Assembly (NCBI GenBank): GCA_951812575.1 | Contig: OX638322.1 | Coordinates: 1,611,925 to 1,675,924, forward strand | Length of the DNA: 64,000 nt | Source: Candidatus Binatia bacterium | GTDB lineage: Bacteria; Desulfobacterota; Binatia; Bin18 | Direction of reading: 5' to 3' | Shown here: piece by piece, positions 58,049-64,000 of the stretch | Position numbering within the stretch: position 1 is the stretch's first letter | Layout: every line of letters starts with the position of its first letter | Made by a program: the position numbers and the translations under genes | Notes under the pieces: model-generated | What the model saw: only the letters and a program-made list of their open reading frames with translations | Told to the model about the DNA's origin: nothing | Databases searched by the model: none

Positions 58049-58144
58049 AATTGTGCCTCATCTTTCCTATCCGTCGCCTCACTACTCTACCGACACCCTC
58101 AATGACAGCCTGAAACGGGGAATTTCAGGAATGATCATATAGGC

Positions 58145-58185
58145 TTGCCCTGGGCCGAAGTTGCTATATACTTTGTGTATATAGC
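58145..58185 (+). promoter_or_regulatory. vapB promoter and operator
   Basis: TTGCCC (58145-58150), a 16-base spacer and TATACT (58167-58172) make a good promoter. The perfect inverted repeat GCTATATAC (58163-58171), 5-base loop, GTATATAGC (58177-58185) overlaps the -10, as expected for autorepression by the antitoxin complex. A ribosome-binding site CAGGAGG follows, then the ATG at 58203. Confidence 0.75.
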
Positions 58186-58202
58186 TCAGGAGGGTGTTTT
58201 CA

Positions 58203-58436
58203 ATGCCTATTGGTTCTGTATTTGTTAATAACCGGACCCAGGCGGTCCGGTTACCCGCCGGTACTCGTTTTCCGGACAAAGTGAAACAAGTCACTGTTCG
58301 TGTGGTCGGGAAGGATAGGGTGTTATCTCCTGTGGATAGCTCATGGGACAGCTTCTTTTTCTCTAAAGAGCGTGTGAGCGATGATTTTCTGGAAGAACGG
58401 GCGTCCCAGGAGCAAGCTGAGCGGGAAGCCTTTTGA
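58203..58436 (+). CDS. vapB: VapB-type antitoxin
   Basis: 77 residues: MPIGSVFVNNRTQAVRLPAG is the AbrB-like DNA-binding start, and the acidic-helical end (SDDFLEERASQEQAEREAF) would bind the toxin. The ATG follows CAGGAGGGTG. The stop overlaps the toxin start (TGATG). The gene looks intact while its toxin is damaged. Confidence 0.9.
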   Translation: MPIGSVFVNNRTQAVRLPAGTRFPDKVKQVTVRVVGKDRVLSPVDSSWDSFFFSKERVSDDFLEERASQEQAEREAF

Positions 58437-58690
58437 TGTTGAAATACATGCTCGATACCAATATTGCCATTTATGTTATCAAGCGCCGCCCGATAGACGC
58501 CTTGGAGACCTTTAACCGGCATGCCGGCCAGTTGTGTATCAGTTCAATTATCCAGCGCTGGAACGGAAGGGGACGCCTATCGGCGTGAACGATTTACATA
58601 TAGGTCACTCCAGAAGCGAAGGCTTAACCTTGGTCGCCATAACCTGAAGGAATTTGAGCGGGAGGAATGCTCGCGTCTGAGAATTGGTTT
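58436..58690 (+). pseudogene. vapC: Decayed vapC toxin
   Basis: The first 39 codons (MLKYMLDTNIAIYVIKRRPI, then AGQLCISSI) match a PIN-domain VapC with the first catalytic Asp. The frame then changes and stops at 58588 after 50 codons, where about 130 are normal. Another frame from about 58580 encodes NDLHIGHSRSEGLTLV and EFERE-like residues, the usual VapC C-terminus. So about 45 central residues are lost and one or two frameshifts have occurred. Confidence 0.8.
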
Positions 58691-58761
58691 CAATTTTGAA
58701 GATGAAAAATCTCAGATTCCCCCCTACCCTGACTACCTGCCTGAGAACCGGAGAGGGGCAG

Positions 58762-58836
58762 GGCGAAGCCGCCCGAGCTCGTCAGGCCATGAGCGGGGAG
58801 GGTAGAGTTTACGGGAAGGTGGTACTGGTGCCATAG
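58762..58836 (+). pseudogene. Orphan 3' end of a quinone reductase gene
   Basis: 25 codons in one frame (GEAARARQAMSGEGRVYGKV, then VLVP and stop) match the C-terminus of the quinone reductase at 57071-58048. Over the last 50 bases 38 are identical. The sequence before it is not recognisably homologous. It follows the decayed vapC. Confidence 0.75.
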
Positions 58837-58902
58837 GTCCCACGGTTGAAGTCTGTGGTGAGCATGTCGCAACTTGGCCCCTTAGAGAGAGGAGGTTGCC
58901 GA

Positions 58903-59814
58903 ATGGATGACGAGACTATCAGTGAGTTGGACGAAGCGATCCGGTTCGATCCAACAAATGCCACCGCCTACAACGACCGGGGAGTCACCTACTCCGAACA
59001 AGGTGAGTATGACCGGGCGATTGCCGACTACAACGAAGCCATCCGGTTTGATCCTGGGCTTGCCGTAGCCTACATCAATAGGGGAGAAGCTTATATCAAC
59101 AGAGGATACGCCCATGGCCACAAAGGCGAGTACGACAGTATTGCAGACTACGACAAGGCTATTGCGGACTTGAACGAGGCTCTCCGGCTCAATCCGCACT
59201 ATGCCCTAGCCTACAACAACCGAGGACGCGCGTACATCAACAGGGGGTACGCTCACCGCCACAAAGGCGAGTACGACAGTATTGCAGACTACGACAAGGC
59301 TATTGCGGACTTGAACGAGGCTCTCCGGCTCAATCCGCACTATGCCCTAGCCTACAACAACCGGGGGAATGCCTATCGCCAAAAAGGCGAGTATGACCAG
59401 GCCATCGCGAACTATGATGAAGCCCTTCAACTTGACCCTCAATATGCCAAAGCCTACCGCAACAGGGGACGCGCTTACAGCGACAAAGGTGATTATGATC
59501 AAGCTATCGCAGACTATGACAACACGGTCAGGCTTTGCCCTAATTATGAGACTGAGTTCGTCGACTCTAACTTCAGAAATGGGCGAGGAATCACCCCGGC
59601 TGAAGCTGGAAGGGCTATTGAACTATTGAACAGCGTCATTGGTTATCCCTCTTCTCCTAAGAGTGCCTCCGACTACTACTACTATGGAGTAAGGGCACTA
59701 TTTAGAAACTACAGACATTACGCCCGTAGGTATTTCGAGATAGCCCTGAAGCTGGGGTATGAAGACCAAGCCAAGATTAAGAAGCATCTTGAGAACCTGA
59801 AGAATCGGAGATAG
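58903..59814 (+). CDS. TPR-repeat protein
   Basis: A 303-residue protein built from six or more tetratricopeptide repeats such as ATAYNDRGVTYSEQGEYDRA and YAKAYRNRGRAYSDKGDYDQ. The tail (KSASDYYYYGVRALFRNYRH) is different. The ATG at 58903 follows AGAGAGGAGG. There is no signal peptide. Repeat units 3 and 4 are almost exact copies at DNA level (see repeat entry). TPR proteins hold protein complexes together; the partner is unknown. It converges with the NERD helicase gene. Confidence 0.88.
   Translation: MDDETISELDEAIRFDPTNATAYNDRGVTYSEQGEYDRAIADYNEAIRFDPGLAVAYINRGEAYINRGYAHGHKGEYDSIADYDKAIADLNEALRLNPHYALAYNNRGRAYINRGYAHRHKGEYDSIADYDKAIADLNEALRLNPHYALAYNNRGNAYRQKGEYDQAIANYDEALQLDPQYAKAYRNRGRAYSDKGDYDQAIADYDNTVRLCPNYETEFVDSNFRNGRGITPAEAGRAIELLNSVIGYPSSPKSASDYYYYGVRALFRNYRHYARRYFEIALKLGYEDQAKIKKHLENLKNRR
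59104..59364 (+). repeat. Recent tandem duplication inside the TPR gene
   Basis: A 141-base (47-codon) unit starting at 59104 is repeated at 59245. Bases 59118-59222 and 59259-59363 are identical by eye over 105 positions, including synonymous sites, so the duplication is recent or kept alike by gene conversion. Confidence 0.88.
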
Positions 59815-59883
59815 CGATCTCTGTAGTTGAGCAGGGCATGTAAGGCTTCACGGCGGGATTTTAGTAGTACGGACTGGCTGTTC

Positions 59884-61809
59884 CTACAGGCCGGGCGGCT
59901 CAAAGAAGTCCTTGTAGCTCTCCTGAGCAACAATAATAAGCATTGCCTTGGCCCGACTCATGCCAGTATAGAGTATTCTTCGCAGATATTCATATTGGGG
60001 CAGAGCGACGCCTCCGGCCAACTTTGCCTGTCGGTCGGTAACGGGGAGAACCAAGATGGCCACTTCGCTTTCCAATCCCTGGAAGTCATACACATCACTG
60101 TACCTGAGCGTTTTTGGAGAGGAGTCGCCACTGACGGATAGGACATCTTCGTTGTCTTTGAGGGATTTGTGGGCCTTTTCTTCGGCTTCGCCTGCATTGA
60201 GCAGTTTCCAGCCTCCATATAAGCGTTCAGCATCAAATCCACCGTCGCTGACGCTGGACAGCAGGATGATCTGCCGGGAGTAGAACTTTCTATCTTTCAA
60301 ATCGCAGACTAGGCCGTCCAGCACGCTCCCCAACGTTTCTTGGGATTCAAAGTATTTGATTTGAACGAGTGGCCCGTGTACGCCGGAAATTGGGGGTGAT
60401 TCGATATCAACGAACTTGGCAACTGCCTCGGCAATCTCGTGTGTATTCCGGCAATTAGTTTCCAGCTTGTCATTGGACCAGTTGAGGCCCCTGACCTTCA
60501 GCGCGTCCCTCCCGTCTTTACCGAATTGTGAAGAGATTATATTCTGATTTGTAAAATCACCAAATAGCGTCCAGCGCCCGCTCTCCAGCCCATCTTTCAA
60601 CAGGGCGTCCTGAAGATTCAGAAACACCTCGTCACACAGATTCTGTGCTTCGTCAACAATCAGATAGTCGAAAATACGCTCTGTACCCAAGTCTTTAATC
60701 GTCTCGTTTATGAACGACTTCCAGTTGTGATCTGGATAGCCGAACTTCAACGATTCTTCAAGATTAGGCGAATGGTCTAATCTCTGTTGGTATCTGCTCG
60801 CGAGAGCGGGGTCCACTCCAAAAGCCTTGAGCGGCAGCGTCGTAGGCGTGCCTGCCACAACCCGGCCCCCCTTGTCATTGAGAATCGTCTCCGTCCACCT
60901 CTCAAAACGGCGGCTCAGATTGGGGTTGCTACACAGCAGGGCGACCCTTTCGCCTTGTTCGCACAGCTGTCTTGCAAGTTCCATGGCCAGGACGGTCTTG
61001 CCCGTACCTGCCGCGCCGTCAATCACACAACGGTCGTTTATCTCTACTCGCTTCAAGCTGTTACGTTGATCGTTTGTCAGGAGTAGCAACTGCGGGCGGA
61101 GAGATTCCAGACCGGCGCGGGTTATCGTTTCCGGTCTTGGTGTGATCGTCATATCCATCTCCAGGTAATTTTGCAGTCTATATACCGCCTCTTCTGCTTT
61201 AATCTTTGCCTCTCTATATTTACTTGAGTCGCGAGTAAGTTTTTTTATCCATCTCTGCTCTTCATTCTGTTTTCCACGAACCATCTCTCTGGTATAAGTT
61301 GCTAACTGATTGCAGAGTTTATCGGGAGTCCTGGCATCCTTGCCCTCGATTATAAATACTCCATCAATGATAAACGACTCACCATGTGGTCTCGTTACAC
61401 TCTCCAATGTAAGGTCACCATCAATAAATGTAACCGCACACCCAAGTGAAAGCAGGGATTGGTTACGAAAAGGTGAAGGTTTAAGTTCATTTTCAAAGGC
61501 GTGCATCGCAGTCTTGGATTGTCGGAGTGGAGAATCTACCTCTTCCCGAGATGGCATACGATACCATACCTTGCTTCTAGTCTCGTAAGAGCCGCTTTTT
61601 GCCTCAAGACAGATGACAGAGAATCCCTCTGGAATGACAATGATGAAATCGATCTCTCGTGTCTTTGTAGTGTTTTTGGGCTGCTTGACTAATTGCGAAT
61701 GAAATACCCGCCAATCTCTGGCTTGGGGAGCGTGCATAAGGTTTTTGAATATGATTTTTTCAGACCATGGAGCATTGTCAGGAATCTCCGGGGGAATCAT
61801 TATGGCCAT
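59884..61809 (-). CDS. NERD-domain superfamily 1 helicase-like protein
   Basis: A 641-residue protein. The N-terminal NERD nuclease-related domain has REIDFIIVIPEGFSVICLEA followed by Lys-Ser-Gly (Asp and Glu-x-Lys of the PD-D/ExK fold). The helicase part begins near residue 260: Walker A DGAAGTGKTVLAMEL, Walker B FDYLIVDEAQNLCDE and the C-terminal VYDFQGLESEVAILVLP and LYTGMSRAKAMLIIV. Start MAIMIPPEIPDNAP was preferred over an upstream ATG. Such proteins are often part of mobile or defence clusters. It is next to a TPR gene and an AbrB-type gene. Confidence 0.85.
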   Translation of the reverse strand: MAIMIPPEIPDNAPWSEKIIFKNLMHAPQARDWRVFHSQLVKQPKNTTKTREIDFIIVIPEGFSVICLEAKSGSYETRSKVWYRMPSREEVDSPLRQSKTAMHAFENELKPSPFRNQSLLSLGCAVTFIDGDLTLESVTRPHGESFIIDGVFIIEGKDARTPDKLCNQLATYTREMVRGKQNEEQRWIKKLTRDSSKYREAKIKAEEAVYRLQNYLEMDMTITPRPETITRAGLESLRPQLLLLTNDQRNSLKRVEINDRCVIDGAAGTGKTVLAMELARQLCEQGERVALLCSNPNLSRRFERWTETILNDKGGRVVAGTPTTLPLKAFGVDPALASRYQQRLDHSPNLEESLKFGYPDHNWKSFINETIKDLGTERIFDYLIVDEAQNLCDEVFLNLQDALLKDGLESGRWTLFGDFTNQNIISSQFGKDGRDALKVRGLNWSNDKLETNCRNTHEIAEAVAKFVDIESPPISGVHGPLVQIKYFESQETLGSVLDGLVCDLKDRKFYSRQIILLSSVSDGGFDAERLYGGWKLLNAGEAEEKAHKSLKDNEDVLSVSGDSSPKTLRYSDVYDFQGLESEVAILVLPVTDRQAKLAGGVALPQYEYLRRILYTGMSRAKAMLIIVAQESYKDFFEPPGL

Positions 61810-61939
61810 ATAGACGTCTCCAGTCTCTGACGCGATACGTTCAGCGTGCAAAAGTTTCAGATTAAGTCGAATTCACGAATTACGTTACTATCGTTTTTTC
61901 CTGTGAGGAGTCGTCTTAATTTCCCGTATGGCAGGAGGC

Positions 61940-61968
61940 TTGATATAGATAATCAATACTATCATAAA
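61940..61968 (+). promoter_or_regulatory. Possible promoter of the AbrB-type gene
   Basis: TTGATA (61940-61945), 17-base spacer and CATAAA (61963-61968). It lies in the 262-base gap between the helicase gene and the AbrB-type gene. Both hexamers are imperfect, so this is a tentative call. Confidence 0.35.
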
Positions 61969-62071
61969 ATCAGTCAGCAGAAAGAGATGCGATATGGAGG
62001 TGCTGATCTATTTCGGAGGTTTTACCCCAGCAGAAACAGTGACTTACAGCGCAAACTGTACCAGCACCGAT

Positions 62072-62332
62072 ATGGATACAACGGTACAGGTCCGACAAAG
62101 GGGCACGCTGACGTTACCGGCCAGCCTGCGAGAGCGGTACAATATTAAGCTGGGGGATACATTCAGAATTGTCGATCTTGACGGTATCTTAGTCCTGACT
62201 CCCATGGTCCCCATGGTGCCCGAATTGGCGCGAGAGATAGAACGCGCTCGGATTGAGGCTGATCTCAGCGTCGAGGATATGCTTGATTCGCTGCGCGATC
62301 AGCGGACCCGATACGTTCAAGAGAGGACTTAA
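62072..62332 (+). CDS. AbrB/SpoVT-type antitoxin-like protein
   Basis: 86 residues. The swapped-hairpin DNA-binding domain is clear: MDTTVQVRQRGTLTLPASLR, then NIKLGDTFRIVDLDGILVL. A helical tail follows (ELAREIERARIEADLSVEDM). It looks like an antitoxin, but no toxin gene follows: pmoB ends 52 bases on, in the opposite direction. The start was chosen as the ATG right before the domain. Confidence 0.8.
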   Translation: MDTTVQVRQRGTLTLPASLRERYNIKLGDTFRIVDLDGILVLTPMVPMVPELAREIERARIEADLSVEDMLDSLRDQRTRYVQERT

Positions 62333-62339
62333 AGAGGGG

Positions 62340-62394
62340 GCTGCCTGTGGGGGCAGCGGTGGGTCGATAATGCAGGGCCAGACGCTACTGGCCC
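62340..62394. terminator. Double hairpin between the AbrB-type gene and pmoB
   Basis: Stem GCTGCC/GGCAGC (62340-62357) is followed by a perfect 7-bp stem GGGCCAG/CTGGCCC (62375-62394) that covers the pmoB stop codon. The genes converge here. There is no clear T run, so this is a possible bidirectional stop, with moderate confidence. Confidence 0.45.
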
Positions 62395-63695
62395 ATACTT
62401 CCAAAATCAATCTGGATGTTGGAATAGACTTCGTTCAGGCTGGAGATATGATCCCACGGGACGCCCAAACCTTCACGGCTGTTTCCCATCATGATGGGTT
62501 GCAGATCTTCTCTGGCAAGAGGCTGAGCGTCAGTGAAGACGAGCACGCCGGCCGCGGTGATCTGAGGTTGATCGAACTCGATAAAGCGGTCGGTTTCCCA
62601 GATGGCATCCTGCATCGTCAGCGTCAGCATCTTTGTCTCGCCCGGTTGGAAGAGTCCGTCGGGCTCCACCTGCATCGTCGGAATCTCGTTTTGCAAATCC
62701 GAATAGAGGTCTTGCGTAGCGGGGTTGATAAAAGACAGATAACTGGTCGTGAACTTGCGTAGGACCACAGCCTGATCCGAAGCGTTTGTGGCTTCAACCT
62801 GTATACTCAGGGTGCGCTCGGTGGTGTTATAGCGCAACTCTTTGACCTCGGTCTGGACGGCACTCGGGACCGGGAGGCCGGACAGGTCCCACATTCTGGC
62901 GGCTTGGTGTGGAATGATCGGCGGGCGGCCCGAGTTCGTGACCAATAACCCTCCGATAACCACGACCACCAGGACCACACCAAAAATAAGAGACGTTCGA
63001 CGATCAGCGGGCGTGATTTGTTCTTCATCAACCCCGTTAACCAGCAGGGCGTAACGGACGAGCATCGGCCGTCTGGCCCAATAGATAAGCCAGGCCAGCC
63101 CGAGAATCCCAAACGCAATATGCCAGCCGACAACCCGCCCAAACCCGTAATGCTCCAGGTCTATGGTCTCGCCGGTTGCCGGAATCTGTACGGTATAGGA
63201 CGGTGGAGTGTCGCCCGGCACAACGGTGATCCACTTGGCCGGACCCACCAGCCCACCCGTACCGGACAGATTAATCAGCGGGTGGACATGATACCGGCCC
63301 GGCTCGCGCGCCTGGAGAATCATCCTGAAATCGTAAATCTCTCCTAACTCAATATTAAACGCGTTCTGGATAAAACGGCCATTCATCCAGCGTTCGCGTA
63401 CGGCGAGTTTCGGACCCGGCACCAGGACGCCAACCCATGCCAACTCCGGCGTGGTCAGCATGCGCGGCCAGGAGTTCATCGCTCTGAACTTGCCAGTGAT
63501 GGTCATAGTCTCGTTGACCGCGAGCCGCTCGTGCGAGAACTCCACATTGAAGAACGAGATCCCGCGCATGCGGATAAACGGTTCGAGGTTGTGCTCACCA
63601 TGGGCGTGGACAACCGGCGCCTGCATAAACGAGGCCCCGAACACGCACAGGCAGATGAGGCTGACGGCGAGGCAGGCTTTTCCAAGTGGAGACAT
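62385..63695 (-). CDS. pmoB: Copper membrane monooxygenase subunit B (PmoB/AmoB family)
   Basis: A 436-residue periplasmic-facing subunit of the particulate methane/ammonia/alkane monooxygenase family. A signal peptide ends at APVVHA, leaving the mature N-terminus HGEHN. His32, His136 and His138 (in GRYHVHPLINLSG) match the three histidines of the dicopper site CuB. The position of the second-site His (His48 in Methylococcus) is Ser47 in RMRGISFFN. Two membrane helices follow (WHIAFGILGLAWLIYWARRP, LIFGVVLVVVVIGGLLV), then a second cupredoxin-like domain. pmoA ends 15 bases upstream. The substrate cannot be told. Confidence 0.93.
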   Translation of the reverse strand: MSPLGKACLAVSLICLCVFGASFMQAPVVHAHGEHNLEPFIRMRGISFFNVEFSHERLAVNETMTITGKFRAMNSWPRMLTTPELAWVGVLVPGPKLAVRERWMNGRFIQNAFNIELGEIYDFRMILQAREPGRYHVHPLINLSGTGGLVGPAKWITVVPGDTPPSYTVQIPATGETIDLEHYGFGRVVGWHIAFGILGLAWLIYWARRPMLVRYALLVNGVDEEQITPADRRTSLIFGVVLVVVVIGGLLVTNSGRPPIIPHQAARMWDLSGLPVPSAVQTEVKELRYNTTERTLSIQVEATNASDQAVVLRKFTTSYLSFINPATQDLYSDLQNEIPTMQVEPDGLFQPGETKMLTLTMQDAIWETDRFIEFDQPQITAAGVLVFTDAQPLAREDLQPIMMGNSREGLGVPWDHISSLNEVYSNIQIDFGSMGQ

Positions 63696-63710
63696 GAATG
63701 CCTCTACCAG

Positions 63711-64000
63711 TCAGGTTTGGCGCAGGACTTTCCGCATCGGCATAATGCCGAGCAGTTTCCCCAAGCCGATACCAATCCAATACATAAAGGTGCAGGCGAT
63801 ACCGGCCATTAATATGCTGATCCAGATACGCTGGCCCAGGAAGGCTTGCAGCGTACCTTCATCAATCCGGCGTAAGTATTCCGGGGTCTGGGGGCGGATG
63901 AAGTAATAGCCCATCAAATCGGCAATGGTGAAGGTCTTGCCAAACAGCGTCACCGGCTGCAGGAAGGGCATGAGCATCAGCCAGTTCACCGGATAAAAGA
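63711..64000 (-). CDS. pmoA: Copper membrane monooxygenase subunit A (PmoA/AmoA), C-terminal part
   Basis: The last 96 codons of subunit A, cut by the window edge. The motifs fit PmoA/AmoA: FYPVNWLMLMPFLQPV, TLFGKTFTIADLMGYYFIRP and TPEYLRRIDEGTLQAF, then a final membrane helix (ISILMAGIACTFMYWIGIGL). The frame is open to base 64000. The stop is 15 bases before the pmoB start, giving the canonical order A-B; subunit C is expected beyond the edge. Phylogenetic placement would need the whole gene. Confidence 0.9.
   Translation of the reverse strand, partial: FYPVNWLMLMPFLQPVTLFGKTFTIADLMGYYFIRPQTPEYLRRIDEGTLQAFLGQRIWISILMAGIACTFMYWIGIGLGKLLGIMPMRKVLRQT

Follow-up and report, generated by a model that had tools for sequence, protein, structure and literature searches.

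Copper membrane monooxygenases (CuMMOs) of sponge Binatota have already been published (PMC8262859, PMC8163846, PMC9999580). It is known that Bin18 has CuMMO genes (two of two genomes), that two Binatota genomes carry two copies and that pmoA is transcribed in sponges (PMC8262859, PMC9999580, PMC8941161). The enzyme has been treated as pmoA for methane in some studies (PMC9999580, PMC8941161) and as hmo for hydrocarbons in another (PMC8163846), and two clusters have been named for Binatota PmoA (Murphy et al., PMC8262859). These papers appear to describe no separate deep clade of sponge Binatota CuMMO and treat the enzyme as one thing, whereas the genomes carry two unrelated operons. It must therefore be asked which of the two is transcribed and on what substrate each acts. 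What appears to be new here is that one of the two operons (copy 1) is a distinct deep lineage, along with precisely where it occurs and which ligands it has.

Results

A complete pmoCAB operon across the window edge

The window (the whole stretch of 64,000 nucleotides that was analysed, G000:C1:1611925-1675924) comes from a genome that is a single contig of 5.18 Mb. Reading the contig past the window edge completed pmoA and revealed an intact pmoC that begins 534 bases beyond the edge. Copy 1 is therefore a complete pmoCAB operon, with its genes contiguous on one strand in the order pmoC-pmoA-pmoB (Table 1). A sequence-only reading of the window had reported no amoC-type genes in view, which was an edge effect; the rightward extension that it proposed yielded both the full pmoA and pmoC. 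The start of pmoC was set at MAATS from comparison with relatives. The copy-1 genes have no stops and no signs of decay, and their GC content is 56.3%, versus 57.1% for the window. A promoter and terminator scan for copy 1 gave nothing usable.

Table 1. Coordinates of the features discussed (window numbering, except where a genome position is given)
Feature	Position	Strand	Evidence or remark
pmoB (copy 1), complete, 436 aa	62385..63695	(-)	PF04744 (Monooxygenase_B) 4.1e-99; phmmer 6e-74 to 6cxh_A
pmoA (copy 1), C-terminal part in window	63711..64000	(-)	PF02461 6e-16 over 95 residues
pmoA (copy 1), whole gene, 247 aa	to 64454; G000:C1:1675635-1676378	(-)	PF02461 3.0e-60
pmoC (copy 1)	64534-65385, beyond window edge	(-)	PF04896 1.9e-43
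PmoB leader, residues 1-31, hydrophobic	63603..63695	(-)	sequence and alignment to pMMO chains
PmoB H32, CuB ligand (M. capsulatus H33)	63600..63602	(-)	alignment
PmoB S47 replacing H48	63555..63557	(-)	alignment; bis-His site lost
PmoB R71 replacing H72	63483..63485	(-)	alignment; bis-His site lost
PmoB H136-V-H138, CuB ligands	63282..63290	(-)	alignment
second pmoCAB (copy 2)	G000:C1:3947861-3951189		pmoA and pmoB separated by a small additional gene

Downstream of copy-1 pmoB in the window (58082-62332) are a MazE-like antitoxin and a large ATPase, and congeners have other short genes there (L035, L036, L037). This stretch looks insertion-prone, since its content differs between congeners. 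A TPR protein at 58846-59814 contains a block of repeats that is duplicated near-perfectly.

Metal sites

As in the copper membrane monooxygenase superfamily, the A, B and C subunits of copy 1 are encoded together, and PmoB has the N-terminal His and the HxH motif. The sequence-only reading saw in PmoB an intact signal peptide, a mature N-terminal His and an HVH pair, and the alignment agrees: the open reading frame begins with a hydrophobic leader, and H32, H136 and H138 align to H33, H137 and H139 of M. capsulatus, so that all CuB ligands are kept. The leader is predicted to be cleaved before H32, and the motif AHGEHN lies at the mature N-terminus; solved pMMO chain sequences begin at HGE. 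PmoC retains the CuC and CuD ligands with the spacings D-x3-H-x12-H and N-x3-H-x13-H. Its motifs, DAVWHQIVVRDTAFTPSH and NELGHSSWITEELFVQPYH, contain the counterparts of D156/H160/H173 and N227/H231/H245 (M. capsulatus numbering), which we take, from the motif spacing, to be the CuC and CuD ligands. The CuB, CuC (D..WH..H) and CuD (N...H..H) ligands are intact in every copy-1 member examined.

The optional bis-His site of PmoB is a different matter. The earlier reading correctly saw Ser47 at the position of H48 but missed Arg71, which replaces H72; because both histidines are replaced, the site is entirely absent. In the sister genus, position 48 is Ala. HMO-type enzymes such as that of NBB4 likewise lack the site in the alignment.

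An AlphaFold model of copy-1 PmoB has a mean pLDDT of 62, and its top Foldseek match is pMMO/AMO (E 2.5e-31, TM 0.41). With these values, the structure match adds little.

Distribution and selection

The genome is assigned to the class Binatia, among the groups that the sequence-only reading had named for comparison, and the sponge symbiont "bin18" is one of its named congeners. Close relatives of the copy-1 PmoA (91-98% identity) are Candidatus Binatia/Binatota records, including 'Desulfurellaceae bacterium bin18' (MPMI01), a symbiont of the sponge Aplysina aerophoba (Murphy et al., PMC8262859; Ramirez et al., PMC9999580). Judging by the sample prefix, the records CO36406bin_18 and bin_19 probably belong to the sponges surveyed by Robbins et al. 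(PMC8163846).

Copy 1 is present in all seven genomes of the genus and both genomes of a sister genus, and absent from the other 139 of the 148 genomes of the class. Copy 2 accompanies it in each case (7/7 and 2/2). Six other members of the family have copy 2 only, and one further member has neither (by PmoB). Among the family members with the copy-2 type only is one from groundwater (G008). So copy 1 tracks two genera, some of whose members are known symbionts of sponges.

Compared pairwise with the window copy, pmoA and pmoB of the genus and sister genus give dN/dS values of 0.05-0.21 and contain no internal stops; copy 1 is under purifying selection in nine of nine genomes. It evolves faster than copy 2, for which dN/dS reaches 0.13. 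The faster evolution could mean relaxed constraint, as has been proposed for verrucomicrobial pmoCAB3 (PMC6215863).

Upstream, the conserved neighbours of copy 1 in the genus are an AstE/AspA-like gene and a GCS2-CBS gene. Neither was found in the sister genus, and pmoCAB is therefore the inherited unit. Contamination of the assembly is an unlikely source of copy 1, given its presence in nine genomes, its conserved flanks in the genus and a GC content equal to that of its surroundings.

The second operon

Copy 2 belongs to the HMO type (Actinobacteria/SAR324/Binatota). Three neighbouring genes encode a multicopper oxidase, a secreted protein that is cupredoxin-like, and a PQQ dehydrogenase from the methanol/ethanol family. 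At this locus (L004:4949-13813; G000:C1:3942948-3951812), pmoCAxB is packed together with these three genes. The locus also encodes two secreted proteins, each with a single transmembrane segment, that look alike by eye and have no Pfam match.

Phylogenetic position of copy 1

In a careful concatenated tree (58 rows, LG+C20+F+G4; Verrucomicrobia, NC10 and archaeal CuMMOs not included), copy 1 forms its own clade (100/100), and the stem that leads to it measures 1.31 changes per site. Neither the pMMO/AMO/TUSC clade (100/100) nor the HMO-type clade of Actinobacteria, SAR324 and Binatota (99/97) includes it. Copy 1 is also a separate long-stem clade in the single-gene trees. The PmoA and PmoB trees agree with the concatenated one, with weaker HMO support for PmoA (90/60), and the HMO side is not resolved in the PmoC tree. 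Verrucomicrobial and NC10 PmoA and PmoC fall with the proteobacterial group (Khadka et al., PMC6215863), and copy 1 lies outside that group. Outside the two genera, identity is at most about 46% for PmoA and about 35% for PmoB. In a scan of named genomes limited to matches with either of two short PmoA motifs, the next-best relative drops from 78% to 39% (up to 46% in partial alignments), and other Binatia PmoA are at most 43% identical.

Two possible origins were rejected. Duplication of copy 2 within the lineage would put both copies in a common clade, which fails the AU test (p=2e-49; reduced sequence set, simple model), and a common clade with TUSC-type sequences is also rejected (p=1.8e-5). 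The sequence-only reading had proposed that the enzyme may represent a CuMMO clade that has been little studied and is unlike those of known methanotrophs or nitrifiers, and had counted placement in a known clade, a missing pmoC or decayed genes against it. A complete, undecayed operon that forms a clade of its own among the sequences sampled, and groups neither with copy 2 nor with the TUSC type, bears this proposal out.

A more serious alternative is that copy 1 is a very divergent actinobacterial HMO (Mycobacterium/Rhodococcus, NBB4-type), gained by transfer, for C2-C4 alkanes or alkenes. In the PmoA and PmoC trees, the outside rows that come closest to copy 1 include HMOs of Mycobacterium and Rhodococcus. 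Copy 1 and NBB4 have Arg in common at the H72 position of PmoB, and copy-1 PmoA, like HMO, is without the Glu100 of proteobacterial pMMO. Robbins et al. (2021, PMC8163846) assigned every bacterial CuMMO from sponges to the hmo clade. The AU test of a common clade is split: a simple model does not reject it (p=0.24), but a mixture model disfavours it (p=0.022). In addition, the HMO-type clade closes at 99/97 without copy 1, and identity is only about 40% for PmoA and 36% for PmoC. On balance we regard this origin as unlikely, although it deserves to be kept in mind.

Three side observations concern other CuMMO-bearing records. In L116:56-1318 (genome G416, same phylum), the N-terminal half of PmoA runs in frame into unrelated Lon-protease-like sequence, possibly an assembly chimera. 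The metagenome records L046, L089 and L093, titled 'Klebsiella pneumoniae', are clearly mislabelled, since one is from this Binatia family and the others resemble CuMMO records of Gammaproteobacteria. In the long-branch CuMMO of an Alicyclobacillaceae MAG (L041), the two histidines of the PmoC CuD motif stand one residue further apart.

Substrate and onward metabolism

The sequence-only reading left methane, short alkanes and ammonia as candidate substrates. The hydrocarbons are now favoured and ammonia has become less likely. No HAO-type multihaem cytochrome was found in this genome or in six relatives, by a search that was positive in three methanotroph genomes; oxidation of methane or short hydrocarbons is therefore likelier than nitrification. 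It is improbable, in our view, that copy 1 is an ammonia monooxygenase with which the bacterium oxidises ammonia of its host. Ammonia is abundant in sponges, and the NCBIfam AmoB, AmoA and AmoC models outscore the mixed methane/ammonia models on copy 1. However, all NCBIfam matches are below the cut-offs (the highest is AmoB, 334.6 versus 336), so the substrate cannot be read from these models, and copy 1 is outside the clade with the solved bacterial AMOs. Furthermore, Thaumarchaeota were the sole ammonia oxidisers in the sponges surveyed by Robbins et al. (PMC8163846).

Fae was not found in the genome by a search whose positive control matched, and the H4MPT route for formaldehyde is thus without support; absence of Fae has also been reported for Binatota (Murphy et al., PMC8262859). 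The genome has four full-length PQQ-dehydrogenase loci, 43-100% identical to the one linked to copy 2, which passes TIGR03075. Two of the loci have XoxJ-like neighbours, as judged by eye. The DYDG motif suggests that these dehydrogenases are of the lanthanide type, and XoxFJG is reported in Bin18 (Murphy et al., PMC8262859). Together, the HAO, Fae and PQQ results fit a path from hydrocarbon to alcohol and onward, but they do not separate methane from C2-C4 gases or reveal the division of labour between the two copies. The surroundings of copy 1 count against this reading: there is no dehydrogenase, multicopper oxidase or PmoD-like gene beside it, and the genes conserved next to it in the genus point to no function in C1 or alkane metabolism.

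Discussion

We think it probable (roughly 65%) that copy 1 encodes a complete, working CuMMO of its own deep clade, the second in a genome that also has an HMO-type operon, and that it oxidises a small gaseous hydrocarbon. The CuD/CuC site of PmoC, supported by CuB of PmoB, would hydroxylate methane or a C2-C4 alkane or alkene in the cytoplasmic membrane. The alcohol product would then be taken up by the methanol/ethanol-family PQQ dehydrogenases that the genome encodes. Activity, substrate and the hand-over to dehydrogenases are predictions from sequence. That copy 1 is instead a paralogue that has degenerated or can be dispensed with, and that catalyses nothing today, seems very improbable: it evolves faster than copy 2 and has lost the bis-His site, but HMO-type enzymes such as NBB4 are missing that site too, the catalytic copper ligands are all kept, selection is purifying, there are no stops, and copy 1 is retained in nine of nine genomes.

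We speculate, quite tentatively, that copy 1 might be a further major lineage of bacterial CuMMOs beside pMMO/AMO and HMO, fixed in the ancestor of two sponge-tied Binatia genera, and that it might have its own substrate or affinity, suited to trace hydrocarbons within the host, and work alongside the HMO-type enzyme. A deep lineage that has complete catalytic sites and no bis-His site is a point of comparison for the basis of substrate choice in CuMMOs.

The closest described systems each resemble copy 1 in part. The HMO-type CuMMOs of Binatota (Murphy et al. 2021, PMC8262859), including copy 2, are like it in organism group, pmoC-A-B order, and the ligands of PmoB CuB and PmoC. However, they are only about 31-38% identical to it, a common clade is rejected, and copy 1 has neither the additional gene that separates pmoA from pmoB in copy 2 nor the multicopper oxidase, cupredoxin and PQQ-dehydrogenase neighbours found there. 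The HMOs of Mycolicibacterium chubuense NBB4, M. dioxanotrophicus and Rhodococcus rank with the nearest sequences, by distance, in the trees for PmoA and PmoC and have the same Arg for His72 and the same PmoA without Glu100, but at about 40% PmoA identity their grouping with copy 1 is unsupported in the best-model tree. The TUSC cluster 2-type CuMMO also occurs in Binatia and has a complete CuB site; we infer that this second cluster reported for Binatota is the one represented by L113 and L052. It retains His72 and belongs to the pMMO/AMO clade, whereas copy 1 does neither. Lastly, although copy 1 is separated from proteobacterial pMMO in the tree (100/100) and is without both of its bis-His ligands, it shares with the M. 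capsulatus enzyme (3rgb/1yew) the sequence family, the CuB, CuC and CuD ligands, and the pmoCAB order.
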